Below, in pieces: positions 35,683-60,774 of a stretch of DNA of 64,000 nucleotides. Origin of the DNA: Halarcobacter sp. (GTDB lineage: Bacteria; Campylobacterota; Campylobacteria; Campylobacterales; Arcobacteraceae); NCBI RefSeq assembly GCF_963675975.1, contig NZ_OY780939.1, positions 496,001 to 560,000 on the forward strand, read 5' to 3'. Under the pieces are notes generated by a model that searched no databases, was not told the DNA's origin, and was given only the letters and a program-made list of their open reading frames with translations. The position numbers and the translations under genes were made by a program. Within the stretch, counting starts at the first letter, position 1. Every line of letters starts with the position of its first letter.

Positions 35683-35703
35683 ATATCTATACCATATAGA
35701 TAT
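35683..35703. promoter_or_regulatory. 21-nt palindrome before the NDH-2-like gene
   Basis: ATATCTAT and ATAGATAT form a perfect 8-bp stem around ACCAT, ending 3 nt before the AAGGA ribosome-binding site. It could act as an operator for the flavoprotein gene or as a 5'-UTR hairpin. It lies in a 195-nt divergent promoter region shared with nfo. Confidence 0.45.
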
Positions 35704-35716
35704 GCAAGGATGTTTT

Positions 35717-36916
35717 ATGGATAAAGTAGTAATTATAGGTGGTGGATATGCGGGTATTTATGCCCTAAGAGAATTAGTTAAATCAAAAAATATAAAAATA
35801 ACACTTATTGATAAACACACTTTTCACAACTTACAACCAGAAGTTTATGATTTGATTGCAAATAAATCAAATATTGCTGATGTAACTATAGATTTAACAA
35901 CACTTTGTGCAGGATTAAACCATCCATATTTGGAATATAAAAACCTAAAAGTTAGACAAATAGACCATAATACAAAAAAGATATTTACTGAAGAAAAAGA
36001 GATAGTTGATTTTGATTATCTAATAATGGCAGCAGGGACAAGAACATTTTTTCCTACAGCAATCTCTGGTTTAAATAATGCTGATGATATAAAAAAACTT
36101 CATAGAGCAATGTTTTTTAAACAAAGTTTTGAAAATGAACTGTTTAAAAAAATTAGAGATGAAGCAAAACAGTGTGCAGATACACATATTGTAGTTGTTG
36201 GAGCTGGTTTATCTGGAGTTGAAATAGCAGCAGAGATGGCATACAACTCTAGAAAGTTTTTTAAAAGGGGTAAATTCTCTTGTGATAATATGAAAATCTC
36301 TATAATAAGTAGTTCAGATACTATTTTACCTGGATTAACTCCTGAACTTATTAGAATCTCACATGATAGATTAAAAGAGCTTGGTATAAATGTTATCACA
36401 AATACAAAACTTCAAAAATGTGTAGATAAGTTTGCATTTTTATCTAATGGCACAAAAATTCATTATTCTTTTCTAATCTTTACAGGTGGAGTTGAAGCTT
36501 CTAAAATAACTGATGAATTAGACGTAGCTAAAAATAGAAAAGGTCAAATAATAGTAAATGAATATATGCAAACAGATAAGTATGAAAATATTTTTGCTAT
36601 TGGAGATATTGCTGAGATTAAAAATGCTGCTGGAGAGATAATGCCTCCAAATGTTACAATTGCAAGAATCAGTGGTACAAATGCAGGAAAAAATATTTTA
36701 AATATCATAAATAAAAAGAAACTTGTAAAATGTCAACCAAAGCTAGATGGTATTTTAATCGCTTTAGGTGGACAATATGCAGCGGGGAATATTTTTAATC
36801 TTTTCCATGTAAAAGGAAGATTAGCTTATGAGATTAAAAAATATGTATTTACATCGTATAGAGCACCTCTACTTAAACTTATAAAATCTGGGTATTCAAA
36901 ACTAAGAAAAATCTAA
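35717..36916 (+). CDS. NDH-2-like FAD/NAD(P)-dependent oxidoreductase
   Basis: A 399-residue two-dinucleotide-fold flavoprotein. The FAD site is VVIIGGGYAGIYALRELV at the N-terminus, followed by TFHNLQPEVYDL. The second nucleotide site is VVVGAGLSGVEIAAEMA, and the C-terminal FAD segment is NIFAIGDIAEI. Relatives are type II NADH dehydrogenases and sulfide:quinone-type enzymes. The ATG at 35717 has AAGGA 6 nt upstream; the earlier in-frame ATG at 35702 does not. It could supply NADH oxidation in a cell whose complex I lacks NuoE and NuoF (inference). Confidence 0.85.
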   Translation: MDKVVIIGGGYAGIYALRELVKSKNIKITLIDKHTFHNLQPEVYDLIANKSNIADVTIDLTTLCAGLNHPYLEYKNLKVRQIDHNTKKIFTEEKEIVDFDYLIMAAGTRTFFPTAISGLNNADDIKKLHRAMFFKQSFENELFKKIRDEAKQCADTHIVVVGAGLSGVEIAAEMAYNSRKFFKRGKFSCDNMKISIISSSDTILPGLTPELIRISHDRLKELGINVITNTKLQKCVDKFAFLSNGTKIHYSFLIFTGGVEASKITDELDVAKNRKGQIIVNEYMQTDKYENIFAIGDIAEIKNAAGEIMPPNVTIARISGTNAGKNILNIINKKKLVKCQPKLDGILIALGGQYAAGNIFNLFHVKGRLAYEIKKYVFTSYRAPLLKLIKSGYSKLRKI

Positions 36917-37296
36917 TCTCGTAAAATTTTGATTAAAATATTATTTTCTTTATCTCTGAAAATAGTATTTTTTTCATTTTTTTCAAAAAGCTCTTTTATA
37001 AAAGTTTCTTTGTAGTTTTCATTTAAAAACTCTTTGTTAAAACTTTTAAAACTTTGGCAGGAATAAAAGTCTTTGCAAATTTTGTCTTCATACATTTTTA
37101 GCTTTAAGATTGTTGTCCCAGCAGTCAAAATTTCAACTTGGGTATAGTTATTGTATATAGAGATAAAACCTTTATCATAAAATTTTAGTTTTGGTGTTTT
37201 TATCAGTATTGTTGCACTAGAAACCACCGTAGGTTGGTTAAAAGAACAAGAAGTAAAAAACAATATAATGGGTACAAAAAAGAGTAATTTTTTTAT
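36913..37296 (-). CDS. Probable small lipoprotein with an apparent ATA start
   Basis: The 116-residue frame from TTG 37263 starts inside a signal peptide and has no ribosome-binding site there. Extending it upstream in frame gives KKLLFFVPIILFFTSC, a textbook lipoprotein signal with lipobox FTSC, beginning at ATA 37296-37294. AAGGA lies 6 nt before that ATA, and an in-frame TAA lies two codons upstream, so no ATG, GTG or TTG can serve. Either ATA is used or a start codon has been lost. The mature protein is of unknown function. It overlaps the convergent flavoprotein gene by 4 nt. Confidence 0.6.
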   Translation of the reverse strand: MKKLLFFVPIILFFTSCSFNQPTVVSSATILIKTPKLKFYDKGFISIYNNYTQVEILTAGTTILKLKMYEDKICKDFYSCQSFKSFNKEFLNENYKETFIKELFEKNEKNTIFRDKENNILIKILRD

Positions 37297-57529: not shown

Positions 57530-58072
57530 ATGTCAAAAGTTTTATTACCAATATCAAACGGTTTTGAAGAGATTGAAGCTTTAACTATAGCTGATATTTG
57601 TAGACGAGCAGAGATAGAAGTTGTTATAGCATCAATTGAAGATTTAAAAGTTTCAGGTGCTCATAATATAAGTGTTAATGCAGATTCACTTTTAAAAGAC
57701 GTAAACCCAGATGATTTTGATATGATAGTTTTACCAGGAGGCCTTCCAAATGCCTTTAATCTTGCAGATGATGAGTTATTAAAGACTATATTAAAAAAAT
57801 TTAAAAATGAAAATAAATATATTGGTGCCATTTGTGCAGCACCTTATGCTTTACATAAAGCAGAGGTTTTAAATAAAGAATACACATGCTACCCAAGTTT
57901 TGAACAAAGAATAGATTCTTCAAATTATGTTGAAGATAAAATTATAGTACAAGATGAAAAAGTAATAACTTCACAAGGACCAGCTACAGCAATGCCTTTT
58001 GCGTTAGAACTTGTAAAGATATTAAAAGGTGAAGAGATTTCAACTCAAGTAAAGAATGAACTTTTAGCTTAA
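57530..58072 (+). CDS. DJ-1/PfpI family protein
   Basis: A 180-residue protein of the DJ-1/ThiJ fold. It shows LPISNGFEEIEALTIADICR, VLPGGLPNAFNL, and the nucleophile elbow IGAICAAPYAL with the reactive Cys. YajL-type members are linked to chaperone or deglycase activity, which is debated. TAAGGAG precedes the ATG. It overlaps the convergent glycosyltransferase gene by 9 nt. Confidence 0.9.
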   Translation: MSKVLLPISNGFEEIEALTIADICRRAEIEVVIASIEDLKVSGAHNISVNADSLLKDVNPDDFDMIVLPGGLPNAFNLADDELLKTILKKFKNENKYIGAICAAPYALHKAEVLNKEYTCYPSFEQRIDSSNYVEDKIIVQDEKVITSQGPATAMPFALELVKILKGEEISTQVKNELLA

Positions 58073-59200
58073 TTTTTTCAAAATCTCTTCATTTTTTTCC
58101 CAAAAATCTAAAAAACTATGAGAGATAGACATATCTCTCATAAACTCATATGCTTTATTTCTCTTAGAAAAATACTCTTCATCTTTTTTTGCTAATTCTT
58201 TTAAGGCTTCAATAACCTCTTTATTTGAATTTATATCAACAATATATCCAAAATCTTTTTTTACAAATGTTTTAGGACCACCTTTAGTGGTAACTATTAC
58301 AGGAAGAGAAGAAGACATGGCTTCCATAACAACTTGACCTAAAGTATCAGTTGTAGAAGGGAAAATAAAACAATCACTTGAAGCATATATTGAAGATAGT
58401 TCTTTACCTCTTTTTCTACCTAAATAAGTAATTGATTCATCTTCAATTGTTGTTTTAAGTTCTTTATCCCCAACTAATATCAACTGACAATTTTCTAACT
58501 TTGCTTCTTGCCAAAGGTTTAAAAGCTTATGTACATTTTTTTCAACAGAAACTCTACCCACATATAAAACTTTAAATTTTTTGTTATCAACTTGATATTT
58601 ACTCCAAATAGAATCATCTTTAAACTCTTTATCAAAGCTTTCAATATTTATCCCTGCTTTTAAAAGATATAAATCTTCATCCTTAAAACTTAGTTGCTCT
58701 TTTAAAGTTTTAAAATATTCGTCAGATCTAGAAAACAAAGCTTTATATGAACCATAAAAAAATTTTAAAAATTTAATTGTACTCCAACGAAAAAATCTAT
58801 TTTTTGTATTTTTATACATATAAGCAGGAAAATCCGTATGATAAATACCAACAACTGGTATTTTCAATAATTTTGCGCTTATTAAAGCGCATAAACCTAC
58901 AGTCCCTGGCGTTGAGATATGTAATAAATCAGGATTAATTTTTTTTATCTCTGCTTTTATTTTAAAAAAATTTGGTAATACCAAATCCAAAGATTGATAA
59001 TAAGGCATTTTCATTCTAAATATAGGTTTTATATTTTTAATATTTGCAAAACTCTCTTCAGCTTCTTTTTTTGTAGAGGTAATTACAGTAAACTCCTTAT
59101 TATATGTTACTGCTTCTTTTGCAAAATCTTGAATAAATCTTGAAACACCATTAACATCAAAAACTGTATCACTAACTAAGCATATATTTAAATTTTTCAT
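58064..59200 (-). CDS. Family 4 (GT-B) glycosyltransferase
   Basis: A 378-residue retaining glycosyltransferase. The N-terminal acceptor domain has CLVSDTVFDVNGVSRFIQDF. The C-terminal donor domain has VLYVGRVSVEKNVHKLL and IFPSTTDTLGQVVMEAMSSS with the conserved Glu. Relatives transfer mannose or glucose to lipids. There is no Shine-Dalgarno sequence: the ATG is the outer end of one arm of a 23-bp inverted repeat shared with the divergent phosphoesterase gene. The divergent pairing with a phosphoesterase suggests a role in envelope lipids. Confidence 0.85.
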   Translation of the reverse strand: MKNLNICLVSDTVFDVNGVSRFIQDFAKEAVTYNKEFTVITSTKKEAEESFANIKNIKPIFRMKMPYYQSLDLVLPNFFKIKAEIKKINPDLLHISTPGTVGLCALISAKLLKIPVVGIYHTDFPAYMYKNTKNRFFRWSTIKFLKFFYGSYKALFSRSDEYFKTLKEQLSFKDEDLYLLKAGINIESFDKEFKDDSIWSKYQVDNKKFKVLYVGRVSVEKNVHKLLNLWQEAKLENCQLILVGDKELKTTIEDESITYLGRKRGKELSSIYASSDCFIFPSTTDTLGQVVMEAMSSSLPVIVTTKGGPKTFVKKDFGYIVDINSNKEVIEALKELAKKDEEYFSKRNKAYEFMRDMSISHSFLDFWEKNEEILKKLS

Positions 59201-59284
59201 TTGAAAATTCTATTACAACAAGATTACAAGAGTATTACATGTCATTAATTTGTAACCATCATGTAATAGAATTTTCAGATGAAA
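59195..59284. repeat. Inverted repeat enclosing the divergent promoters and both start codons
   Basis: The left arm 59195-59217 and right arm 59262-59284 match at 22 of 23 positions (core TGAAAATTCTATTACA / TGTAATAGAATTTTCA). They surround 44 nt. Each arm, read toward its gene, gives TGTAATAGAAT, a -10-like box, then six bases and the ATG, so both genes may be transcribed without a leader; neither has a ribosome-binding site. An 11-bp direct repeat, TACAAGAGTAT, also occurs at 59225-59235 and 59285-59295. Confidence 0.7.
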
Positions 59285-60016
59285 TACAAGAGTATATTTA
59301 TATCAGATATTCATTTGGGAACTAAATTTTCAAATACAAAACAATTATTAGATTTTTTAAAAAACAATGAGTGTGATAACCTATTTCTAGTAGGAGACAT
59401 AATAGATGGTTGGGCAATAAAAAGGAAATTTGTATGGCCACAATCACATTCAGATGTTATTCAAAAGATTTTAAAAAGAGCAAGAAAAGGTTGCAATGTA
59501 ACTTTTATAACTGGTAACCATGATGAATTTTTAAGACCTTTTGTTCCTTTAATATTAGGGCACTCCCTTGAAATAAAAAATGAACTAATCTATACCTCAA
59601 TAATAGGAAAAAAATATCTAGTAACCCATGGAGATTTTTTTGATTCTATTACAATGACAAAAAAATGGTTGGCAATACTTGGTGACTATGGATATGAACT
59701 ACTTTTAAATGTAAATCAAACCCTAAATGTAATTAGAACAAAATTAGGTATTAAATCAAAATGGTCTTTATCTAAATATGTAAAAGACAATGTAAAATCT
59801 TCAGTTTCTTTTATAACTGATTTTGAGGCAACCTTAGCAAATCATGCAAAATATAAAGGTTATGATGGCATAATATGTGGACATATTCATAAAGCAGAAA
59901 CAAAAATGATAGACCAAGTTGAGTACCTCAACTGCGGTGATTGGGTTGAGTCATGTACAGCTATTGTTGAAACATATGAAGGTGAATTTAAAGTTATTAA
60001 TTGGTTACATAAATGA
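59279..60016 (+). CDS. LpxH-like metallophosphoesterase
   Basis: A 245-residue calcineurin-fold phosphoesterase similar to UDP-2,3-diacylglucosamine pyrophosphatases. The metal motifs are FISDIHLGT, LVGDIIDGW, TGNHDEFLR, LVTHGDFFD and CGHIHKAE. It may cleave UDP-2,3-diacylglucosamine in lipid A synthesis or act on another envelope lipid headgroup. It starts without a ribosome-binding site and overlaps the patatin gene by 4 nt. Confidence 0.85.
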   Translation: MKYKSIFISDIHLGTKFSNTKQLLDFLKNNECDNLFLVGDIIDGWAIKRKFVWPQSHSDVIQKILKRARKGCNVTFITGNHDEFLRPFVPLILGHSLEIKNELIYTSIIGKKYLVTHGDFFDSITMTKKWLAILGDYGYELLLNVNQTLNVIRTKLGIKSKWSLSKYVKDNVKSSVSFITDFEATLANHAKYKGYDGIICGHIHKAETKMIDQVEYLNCGDWVESCTAIVETYEGEFKVINWLHK

Positions 60017-60774
60017 GTGAAAAAAAATTAGCCTTAGCCTTAGGTGGTGGGGCAGCTAGAGGTGCTTTTCATTTAGGTGCACTTCATTTTATGGAAGAGA
60101 GTAATATTCAAATTGATGCTTATGCAGGAAGTTCTATAGGAGCAATAATTGCAGCATCCCATGCAAGTGGGGTAAAAGCAAAAGAACAATTAAAAATATT
60201 TTCTTCTAGTGAACTCAAAACCGCCTTGAAATTTAACTACTTTAAAAATGGTTTGATTCGAATAGAAAGAAACCATCAAGTTTTAGATAAAATCTTACCA
60301 ATAAAAAATCTAGAAGATATTCCCAAAAAAATATATATAACTGCCTATGATTTAAAAAAAAGAGAGCTTCACTATTTTGATGAAGGAGATACTCATACTT
60401 TATGTATGGCTTCAAGTGCTTTGATTCCACTTTTTAAACCTATCTCATATAAAAATATGTATTTAATAGATGGGGGACTTTTTGATTCAGTACCTATCAA
60501 ACCCTTTGATAATAGTATTTATGACACTTTATCAATTGACCTTTTTCCTAAAAGCAATAGTTTAGAGAAAAAAAGAAAAAACCCCTTAAAAACTCTCAAA
60601 AAGAAGCTTTTTACACAATTATATGAAAACCATATTTTTACTATAGAAAACTCTAGTCAATACCTTGCATCTTTAGAGATTAGAGATTATTCAATGTTTA
60701 CATTTAAAGAGTTAGATGATTGTTTTAAATTAGGATATCAAGAAGCAAAAAAACATTTTTTATCATCTAAATAA
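60013..60774 (+). CDS. Patatin-like phospholipase
   Basis: A 253-residue lipid acyl hydrolase. The oxyanion loop is LALGGGAARGAFHLGAL, the nucleophile Ser lies in YAGSSIGAIIAASH (GxSxG), and the catalytic Asp in YLIDGGLFDSVPIKP (DGG). No signal peptide is present, so it acts from the cytoplasm. It is coupled to the phosphoesterase by ATGA. Confidence 0.9.
   Translation: MSEKKLALALGGGAARGAFHLGALHFMEESNIQIDAYAGSSIGAIIAASHASGVKAKEQLKIFSSSELKTALKFNYFKNGLIRIERNHQVLDKILPIKNLEDIPKKIYITAYDLKKRELHYFDEGDTHTLCMASSALIPLFKPISYKNMYLIDGGLFDSVPIKPFDNSIYDTLSIDLFPKSNSLEKKRKNPLKTLKKKLFTQLYENHIFTIENSSQYLASLEIRDYSMFTFKELDDCFKLGYQEAKKHFLSSK

Follow-up and report, generated by a model that had tools for sequence, protein, structure and literature searches.

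Two probable promoters beneath an inverted repeat

In Halarcobacter sp., a glycosyltransferase gene and a phosphoesterase gene diverge from a short intergenic region carrying an inverted repeat whose arms run into both start codons, raising the question of whether the repeat is itself the functional unit. The region was analysed within the window, the whole 64,000-nt stretch of DNA studied here, and in related genomes. The features concerned are:

58064-59200, minus strand: GT4 glycosyltransferase (378 aa), Agt-like, with Pfam Glycos_transf_1 and Glyco_transf_4 domains
59195-59217: left arm of the inverted repeat, holding the start codon and AAA, a 6-nt gap, the -10 box and a third in-phase TGTAAT
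59207-59239, minus strand: putative Pho-box promoter of the glycosyltransferase, with TGTAAT (59239-59234), N5, TGTAAT (59228-59223), N10 and the -10 TAGAAT (59212-59207)
59240-59272, plus strand: putative Pho-box promoter of the phosphoesterase, with TGTCAT (59240-59245), N5, TGTAAC (59251-59256), N10 and the -10 TAGAAT (59267-59272)
59262-59284: right arm of the inverted repeat
59279-60016, plus strand: PlcP-type phospholipase C (245 aa, calcineurin-like phosphoesterase), assigned by identity to P. aeruginosa PlcP
60013-60774, plus strand: patatin-like phospholipase (Pfam Patatin), with an ATG that overlaps the stop of plcP

The first-pass annotation had described 23-bp arms with one mismatch, 44 nt apart and ending in ATGAAA, and this is confirmed: the arms agree at 22/23 positions across a 44-nt spacer, ATGAAA terminates both, and TAGAAT lies 6 nt ahead of each ATG. 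It is the only inverted repeat of at least 22/23 with a spacer of up to 100 nt in the whole window, and none of equal quality appeared in 20 order-1 Markov simulations of the window.

Read outward from the centre, the plus strand carries TGTCAT-N5-TGTAAC-N10-TAGAAT-N6-ATG and the minus strand TGTAAT-N5-TGTAAT-N10-TAGAAT-N6-ATG. The PHO box is described as two 11-nt direct repeat units (PMC4415409), and both strands have two such 11-bp repeats with a TGTNA core; the box replaces the -35 element and lies at a fixed N10 from the -10, as in phoA. The two 33-bp modules, which a genome scan with the pattern returns as G000:C1:555207-555239:- (glycosyltransferase) and G000:C1:555240-555272:+ (phosphoesterase), abut at 59239/59240 with no base between them, and the 78-bp intergenic gap divides into 39+39. 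As a control the phoA promoter of E. coli (TGTCAT-N5-TGTCAC-N10-TATAGT) was retrieved, and its 33-bp geometry and spacings are identical to those of both promoters. It differs in having a long leader, whereas here the -10 is only 6 nt from the ATG; the half-sites here are also mostly TGTAAY, and the two promoters abut head to head. The third in-phase TGTAAT overlaps the -10 within the arms. It is probably not required, a TGTNAY at this place (17-18 nt before the ATG) being found in only 7 of the 87 unique plcP upstream regions described below.

The 78-bp region is thus very probably a pair of minimal head-to-head Pho-box promoters, predicted to drive lipid remodelling by PlcP, the patatin-like protein and the glycosyltransferase during phosphate starvation. 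What speaks for this can be read from the DNA and its relatives: the promoter architecture and geometry, the genome-wide association through the shared motif, the conservation, the homology to PlcP and the leaderless geometry. The mirror-image leaderless promoters of the first-pass annotation are supported, but the Pho boxes and the phosphate-starvation regulon had been overlooked.

Conservation in relatives

Phosphoesterase orthologues (E below 1e-50) occur in 24 of the 41 genomes searched, with weak matches alone in 7 more. The glycosyltransferase is found in 14/41, every one of which also has the phosphoesterase. Named loci come from Arcobacter, Poseidonibacter, Malaciobacter, Aliarcobacter, Sulfurimonas, Sulfurospirillum, Sulfurovum and others. 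Of 102 loci, 94 yielded an upstream region, with 87 unique sequences among them; the other 8 were dropped because the phosphoesterase start could not be recognised or the upstream DNA was too short, and L153 and L154 were excluded as partial.

A comparison with orthologous promoters had been proposed as a check on the earlier reading, and it finds the promoters conserved. In the 87 unique regions the start positions of TGTNAY cluster 39-40 and 28-29 nt ahead of the ATG, and the box pair and the -10 occur together in 34 (shuffle mean 0.005). The -10 is present without the box pair in a further 21 regions, and neither is at the expected place in 29. The glycosyltransferase promoter in relatives keeps the same positions (39/28) and a -10 gap of 6.

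The arms behave differently. Over 22 loci, compared without L024, whose upstream sequence duplicates another's, the arms agree at 22/23 positions here and at 21/23 in the nearest relative, then at 18/23 in the next and at 8-14/23 in the other 19. A functional palindrome serving both genes, such as the operator of a dimeric regulator or a structural element of the cruciform kind, would fit the 22/23 arms, their uniqueness in the window and their absence from the 20 simulations, but it is very unlikely, since arm identity is lost in most relatives while the boxes, the -10 and the distance to the ATG persist, and the boxes also persist at plcP where there is no divergent partner (in 22 of the 34 regions with box pair and -10, a divergent glycosyltransferase was not recognised opposite). 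The persistence of these elements as arm identity decays indicates selection on the promoters and not on the repeat. Though real, the inverted repeat is a by-product, or "shadow", of two facing promoters and is not itself a functional unit; its origin is the opposed placement of two similar promoters and two ATGAAA starts. The earlier reading had been made to depend on conservation of the arms in sister species, and on this point the repeat falls while the promoters hold.

An invertible promoter segment between recombination sites was also considered, because the inverted arms flank 44 bp. The first-pass annotation had pointed out that inversion would leave both promoters in place, with which we agree. 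Both promoters would be retained in either orientation, the arms are unconserved, and all 11 of the 11 loci with a recognisable asymmetric centre are oriented alike, although these are single assemblies, in which rare inverted molecules might be missed. With only one orientation observed, inversion has a negligible probability.

An 11-bp direct repeat, TACAAGAGTAT, at 59225 and 59285 had been seen as adding to an impression of duplicated promoter pieces. Of its two copies, one runs across a Pho half-site, and codons 3-6 of the phosphoesterase make up the other. The repeat is treated here as a coincidence, since L013, the nearest relative, no longer has the upstream copy intact and the other copy is coding. 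The 11-bp repetition that counts is that of the TGTNAY boxes, spaced every 11 bp, which had gone unnamed.

Leaderless geometry

Both genes lack a Shine-Dalgarno sequence and have a -10 within 5-9 nt of the ATG, the arrangement of a leaderless gene. The TAG of TAGAAT is an in-frame stop ahead of each ATG, and therefore neither gene has a start codon further upstream. The shared -10-like box, six-base spacing and missing ribosome-binding site reported in the first-pass annotation are borne out for both genes. A TANNNT lies 6-7 nt before the ATG in 55 of the 87 phosphoesterase upstream regions (shuffles: mean 8.5, maximum 17) and 6 nt before it in 16/23 glycosyltransferase regions, a recurrence that supports mirror-image leaderless expression. 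Shine-Dalgarno-like sites are found in 12/87 and 0/23 of these regions, respectively. Within the Arcobacteraceae-like subset, picked by locus number (L012-L029, from the family of the window, and L075-L094, by record titles and with a few unassigned MAGs), the -10 is at 6-7 nt in 31/32 regions. Leaderless expression of both genes is well supported by this geometry. The background in the window is low: among 45 genes of at least 150 aa that begin with ATG, 3 have TANNNT at 6-7 nt while lacking a Shine-Dalgarno-like site, and two of the three are the pair studied here. The third, at 35702-36917, has TACCAT 6 nt before its ATG and no Shine-Dalgarno sequence.

It is also conceivable, if unlikely, that the genes are Pho-regulated and yet transcribed from further upstream with short leaders, the TANNNT near the ATG not being a -10. 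This would account for the 32/87 unique regions in which TANNNT is missing at 6-7 nt, and other Pho genes of this genome (olsF, phoX) do have leaders with AAGGA-like sites. Against it are the sharp peak at 6-7 nt, the scarcity of Shine-Dalgarno-like sites, and a distance from box to -10 equal to that of E. coli phoA.

Leaderless mRNAs of C. jejuni are described as following the rule gnTAnaAT-N5-9-ATG (PMC3847290), and the two genes resemble them in having TAnAaT 5-9 nt before the ATG and no ribosome-binding site. The same study describes leaderless genes as poorly conserved among Epsilonproteobacteria (PMC3847290), in contrast to the -10 that recurs here in nearly all Arcobacteraceae-like regions; this poor conservation makes the recurrence at plcP noteworthy.

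The gene products

The phosphoesterase appears from its homology to be the phospholipase C PlcP. It is 46.4% identical to P. aeruginosa PlcP over 239 aa. Its identity to the homologue in S. meliloti is 44.8%, and PlcP-type proteins from Pseudomonas, Sinorhizobium, Sphingomonas and Mitsuaria give 45-48%. The Pho-box control and the link to a glycosyltransferase are likewise those of PlcP. The P. aeruginosa protein has a glycosyltransferase gene immediately after it, the arrangement of plcP and glycosyltransferase given for PA3219/PA3218 (PMC8528852). Between the P. aeruginosa and S. meliloti proteins the identity is 46.6%, matching the 46% reported between PA3219 and S. meliloti PlcP (PMC8528852). 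The S. meliloti homologue has an acyl-homoserine-lactone synthase gene and a LuxR-type gene as neighbours. From these neighbours and the gene order, we take the homologue to be SMc00171. SMc00171 is described as a phospholipase C of the Pho regulon (PMC3596328).

Annotation pipelines name PlcP relatives UDP-2,3-diacylglucosamine diphosphatase, that is, LpxH of lipid A synthesis. The pair could then be read as LpxH beside a glycosyltransferase for a surface polysaccharide, under another OmpR-family regulator, and the genome does hold many PhoB-like regulators (85 matches). This reading is highly improbable. LpxH was rejected on identity, which is 27% over 118 aa to the E. coli protein, far from that to PlcP-type proteins. 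A separate LpxH-like gene (open frame of 231 aa) lies at G000:C1:1620276, and the congener G013 keeps its equivalent while having no plcP orthologue. The motif sites, moreover, cluster at phosphorus genes (see below). TIGR01854, the LpxH model, fails to tell PlcP and LpxH apart here, giving 43.5 bits to the phosphoesterase and 40.4 to the paralogue against a cut-off of 190; a six-frame search with this model omitted the phosphoesterase, the 43.5 bits coming from a direct scan. A PDB sequence search returned LpxH entries and weak sucrose-phosphate-synthase-like matches only.

The glycosyltransferase is 23.8-25.6% identical to P. aeruginosa Agt1 and the Sphingomonas PlcP-linked glycosyltransferase, and it has the same GT4 domain families. 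Its best NCBIfam model is GlcN_PG_synth, at 125 bits against a cut-off of 480. By these comparisons it is Agt-like and not a clear Agt orthologue. The patatin-like gene is probably co-transcribed with plcP, and a patatin relative lies within the fetched stretch at 60/87 loci by tblastn, a count used in place of the 24/87 from a regular expression that was too strict.

PlcP-Agt clusters with Pho boxes are described as established in marine heterotrophs and Pseudomonas (PMC4796936, PMC8528852). The locus resembles these clusters, such as PA3219-PA3218 of P. aeruginosa and plcP-agt of SAR11 and Erythrobacter, in having PlcP beside a glycosyltransferase and a Pho box (PMC8528852, PMC4796936). It differs in that the genes are divergent and not on the same strand, the glycosyltransferase is only 24-26% identical, a patatin gene is added, the geometry is leaderless and the phylum is Campylobacterota. 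C. jejuni, of the same phylum, has the phosphate-sensing two-component system PhosS/PhosR. This system is reportedly "non-classical", in the words of a 2006 title. Searches of the open-licence literature returned no report of plcP in Campylobacterota, of phospholipase C together with plcP in Epsilonproteobacteria, or of PhoB together with a Pho box in Sulfurimonas. Papers there matching Arcobacter and the Pho regulon, PMC9449129 included, had neither term in title or abstract. Pho-controlled lipid remodelling, known elsewhere, is the likely function here, in a compact, leaderless, back-to-back form for which no Campylobacterota report was found.

A predicted Pho regulon and its proposed mechanism

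Scanned for TGTMAY-N5-TGTMAY-N10-TANNNT, the 3.27-Mb genome gives 11 matches, against none for the reversed control. When both gaps were left free (25 combinations), 19 matches were obtained, 11 of them on the single combination N5/N10. Seven of the nine sites beyond the studied pair adjoin phosphorus genes; the names pstA, pstB, phoU, kinase, PHP and HAD used here are a reading of the translations and not the result of a family search. The nine sites are:

pstC, at the head of pstC-pstA-pstB-phoU-response regulator-kinase
olsF (OlsF, NF052615, 709 bits, cut-off 620)
PhoX phosphatase
DeoR/GlpR regulator followed by a UgpC-like ATPase (ugp-type)
PhnF-like regulator and PhnC (phnF-phnC; PhnC above its cut-off)
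PHO4 permease, the box being directed away from the permease
organophosphorus-type ABC operon with PHP- and HAD-like genes
L001, without an evident phosphorus role
L009, ahead of a gene encoding a NIT domain, also without an evident phosphorus role

A family scan over 104 genomes gave 403 matches against 16 in the control, with at least one match in 95 of them.

The candidate regulator lies beside pst-phoU at G000:C1:978406-979065 and is 34% identical to E. coli PhoB, scoring 173 bits against the NCBIfam PhoB cut-off of 296. A 135-aa protein (L048:3568-3975) is encoded between the phoU-like and phoB-like genes of the pst operon.

Binding by this regulator, induction, the start site and the lipid products we infer as follows. 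When phosphate is scarce, the PhoB-like response regulator of the pst-phoU operon would occupy both 11-bp repeats of each promoter and bring RNA polymerase to the -10 box, which follows them by 10 nt. Initiation at or beside the ATG would yield leaderless mRNAs for plcP (with the patatin gene) and for the Agt-like glycosyltransferase. PlcP would cleave phospholipids to diacylglycerol and a phosphorylated head group; from the diacylglycerol, a phosphorus-free glycolipid would be made by the glycosyltransferase. OlsF, also behind a Pho box, would supply ornithine lipids, and phosphorus-containing membrane lipids would be replaced by glycolipids and ornithine lipids under phosphate starvation.

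A broader proposal, offered tentatively and with somewhat less than even confidence, is that PlcP-centred remodelling (PlcP, patatin, Agt-like glycosyltransferase and OlsF) under a TGTAAY-type Pho box is lineage-wide in Campylobacterota. The plcP and glycosyltransferase messages might then be leaderless by selection, remaining translatable when starvation depletes ribosomes, and with the promoters compacted to 78 bp the touching regulator arrays may bind cooperatively.

These assignments give a predicted function and regulator to two genes annotated by pipelines as a lipid A enzyme and a generic glycosyltransferase, and they provide a usable Pho-box definition for Arcobacteraceae. They also predict phosphorus-free membrane lipids in Campylobacterota. 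A conserved leaderless pair under a known stress makes it testable why some stress genes are leaderless.

Other Pho-box loci

The Pho-box OlsF ornithine-lipid synthase gene lies in a cluster with a PhoX-like lipoprotein and a divergent phytase-like protein (L049, G000:C1:1303500-1313500), a candidate phosphorus-scavenging island. The box just upstream of the PHO4-family phosphate permease (L004:1501-1533, G000:C1:823921-823953) faces away from the gene, and this orientation might reflect repression of the permease under starvation. The match at L009:1501-1533 precedes a gene whose product has a NIT sensing domain and may be a sensor or chemoreceptor under Pho control.
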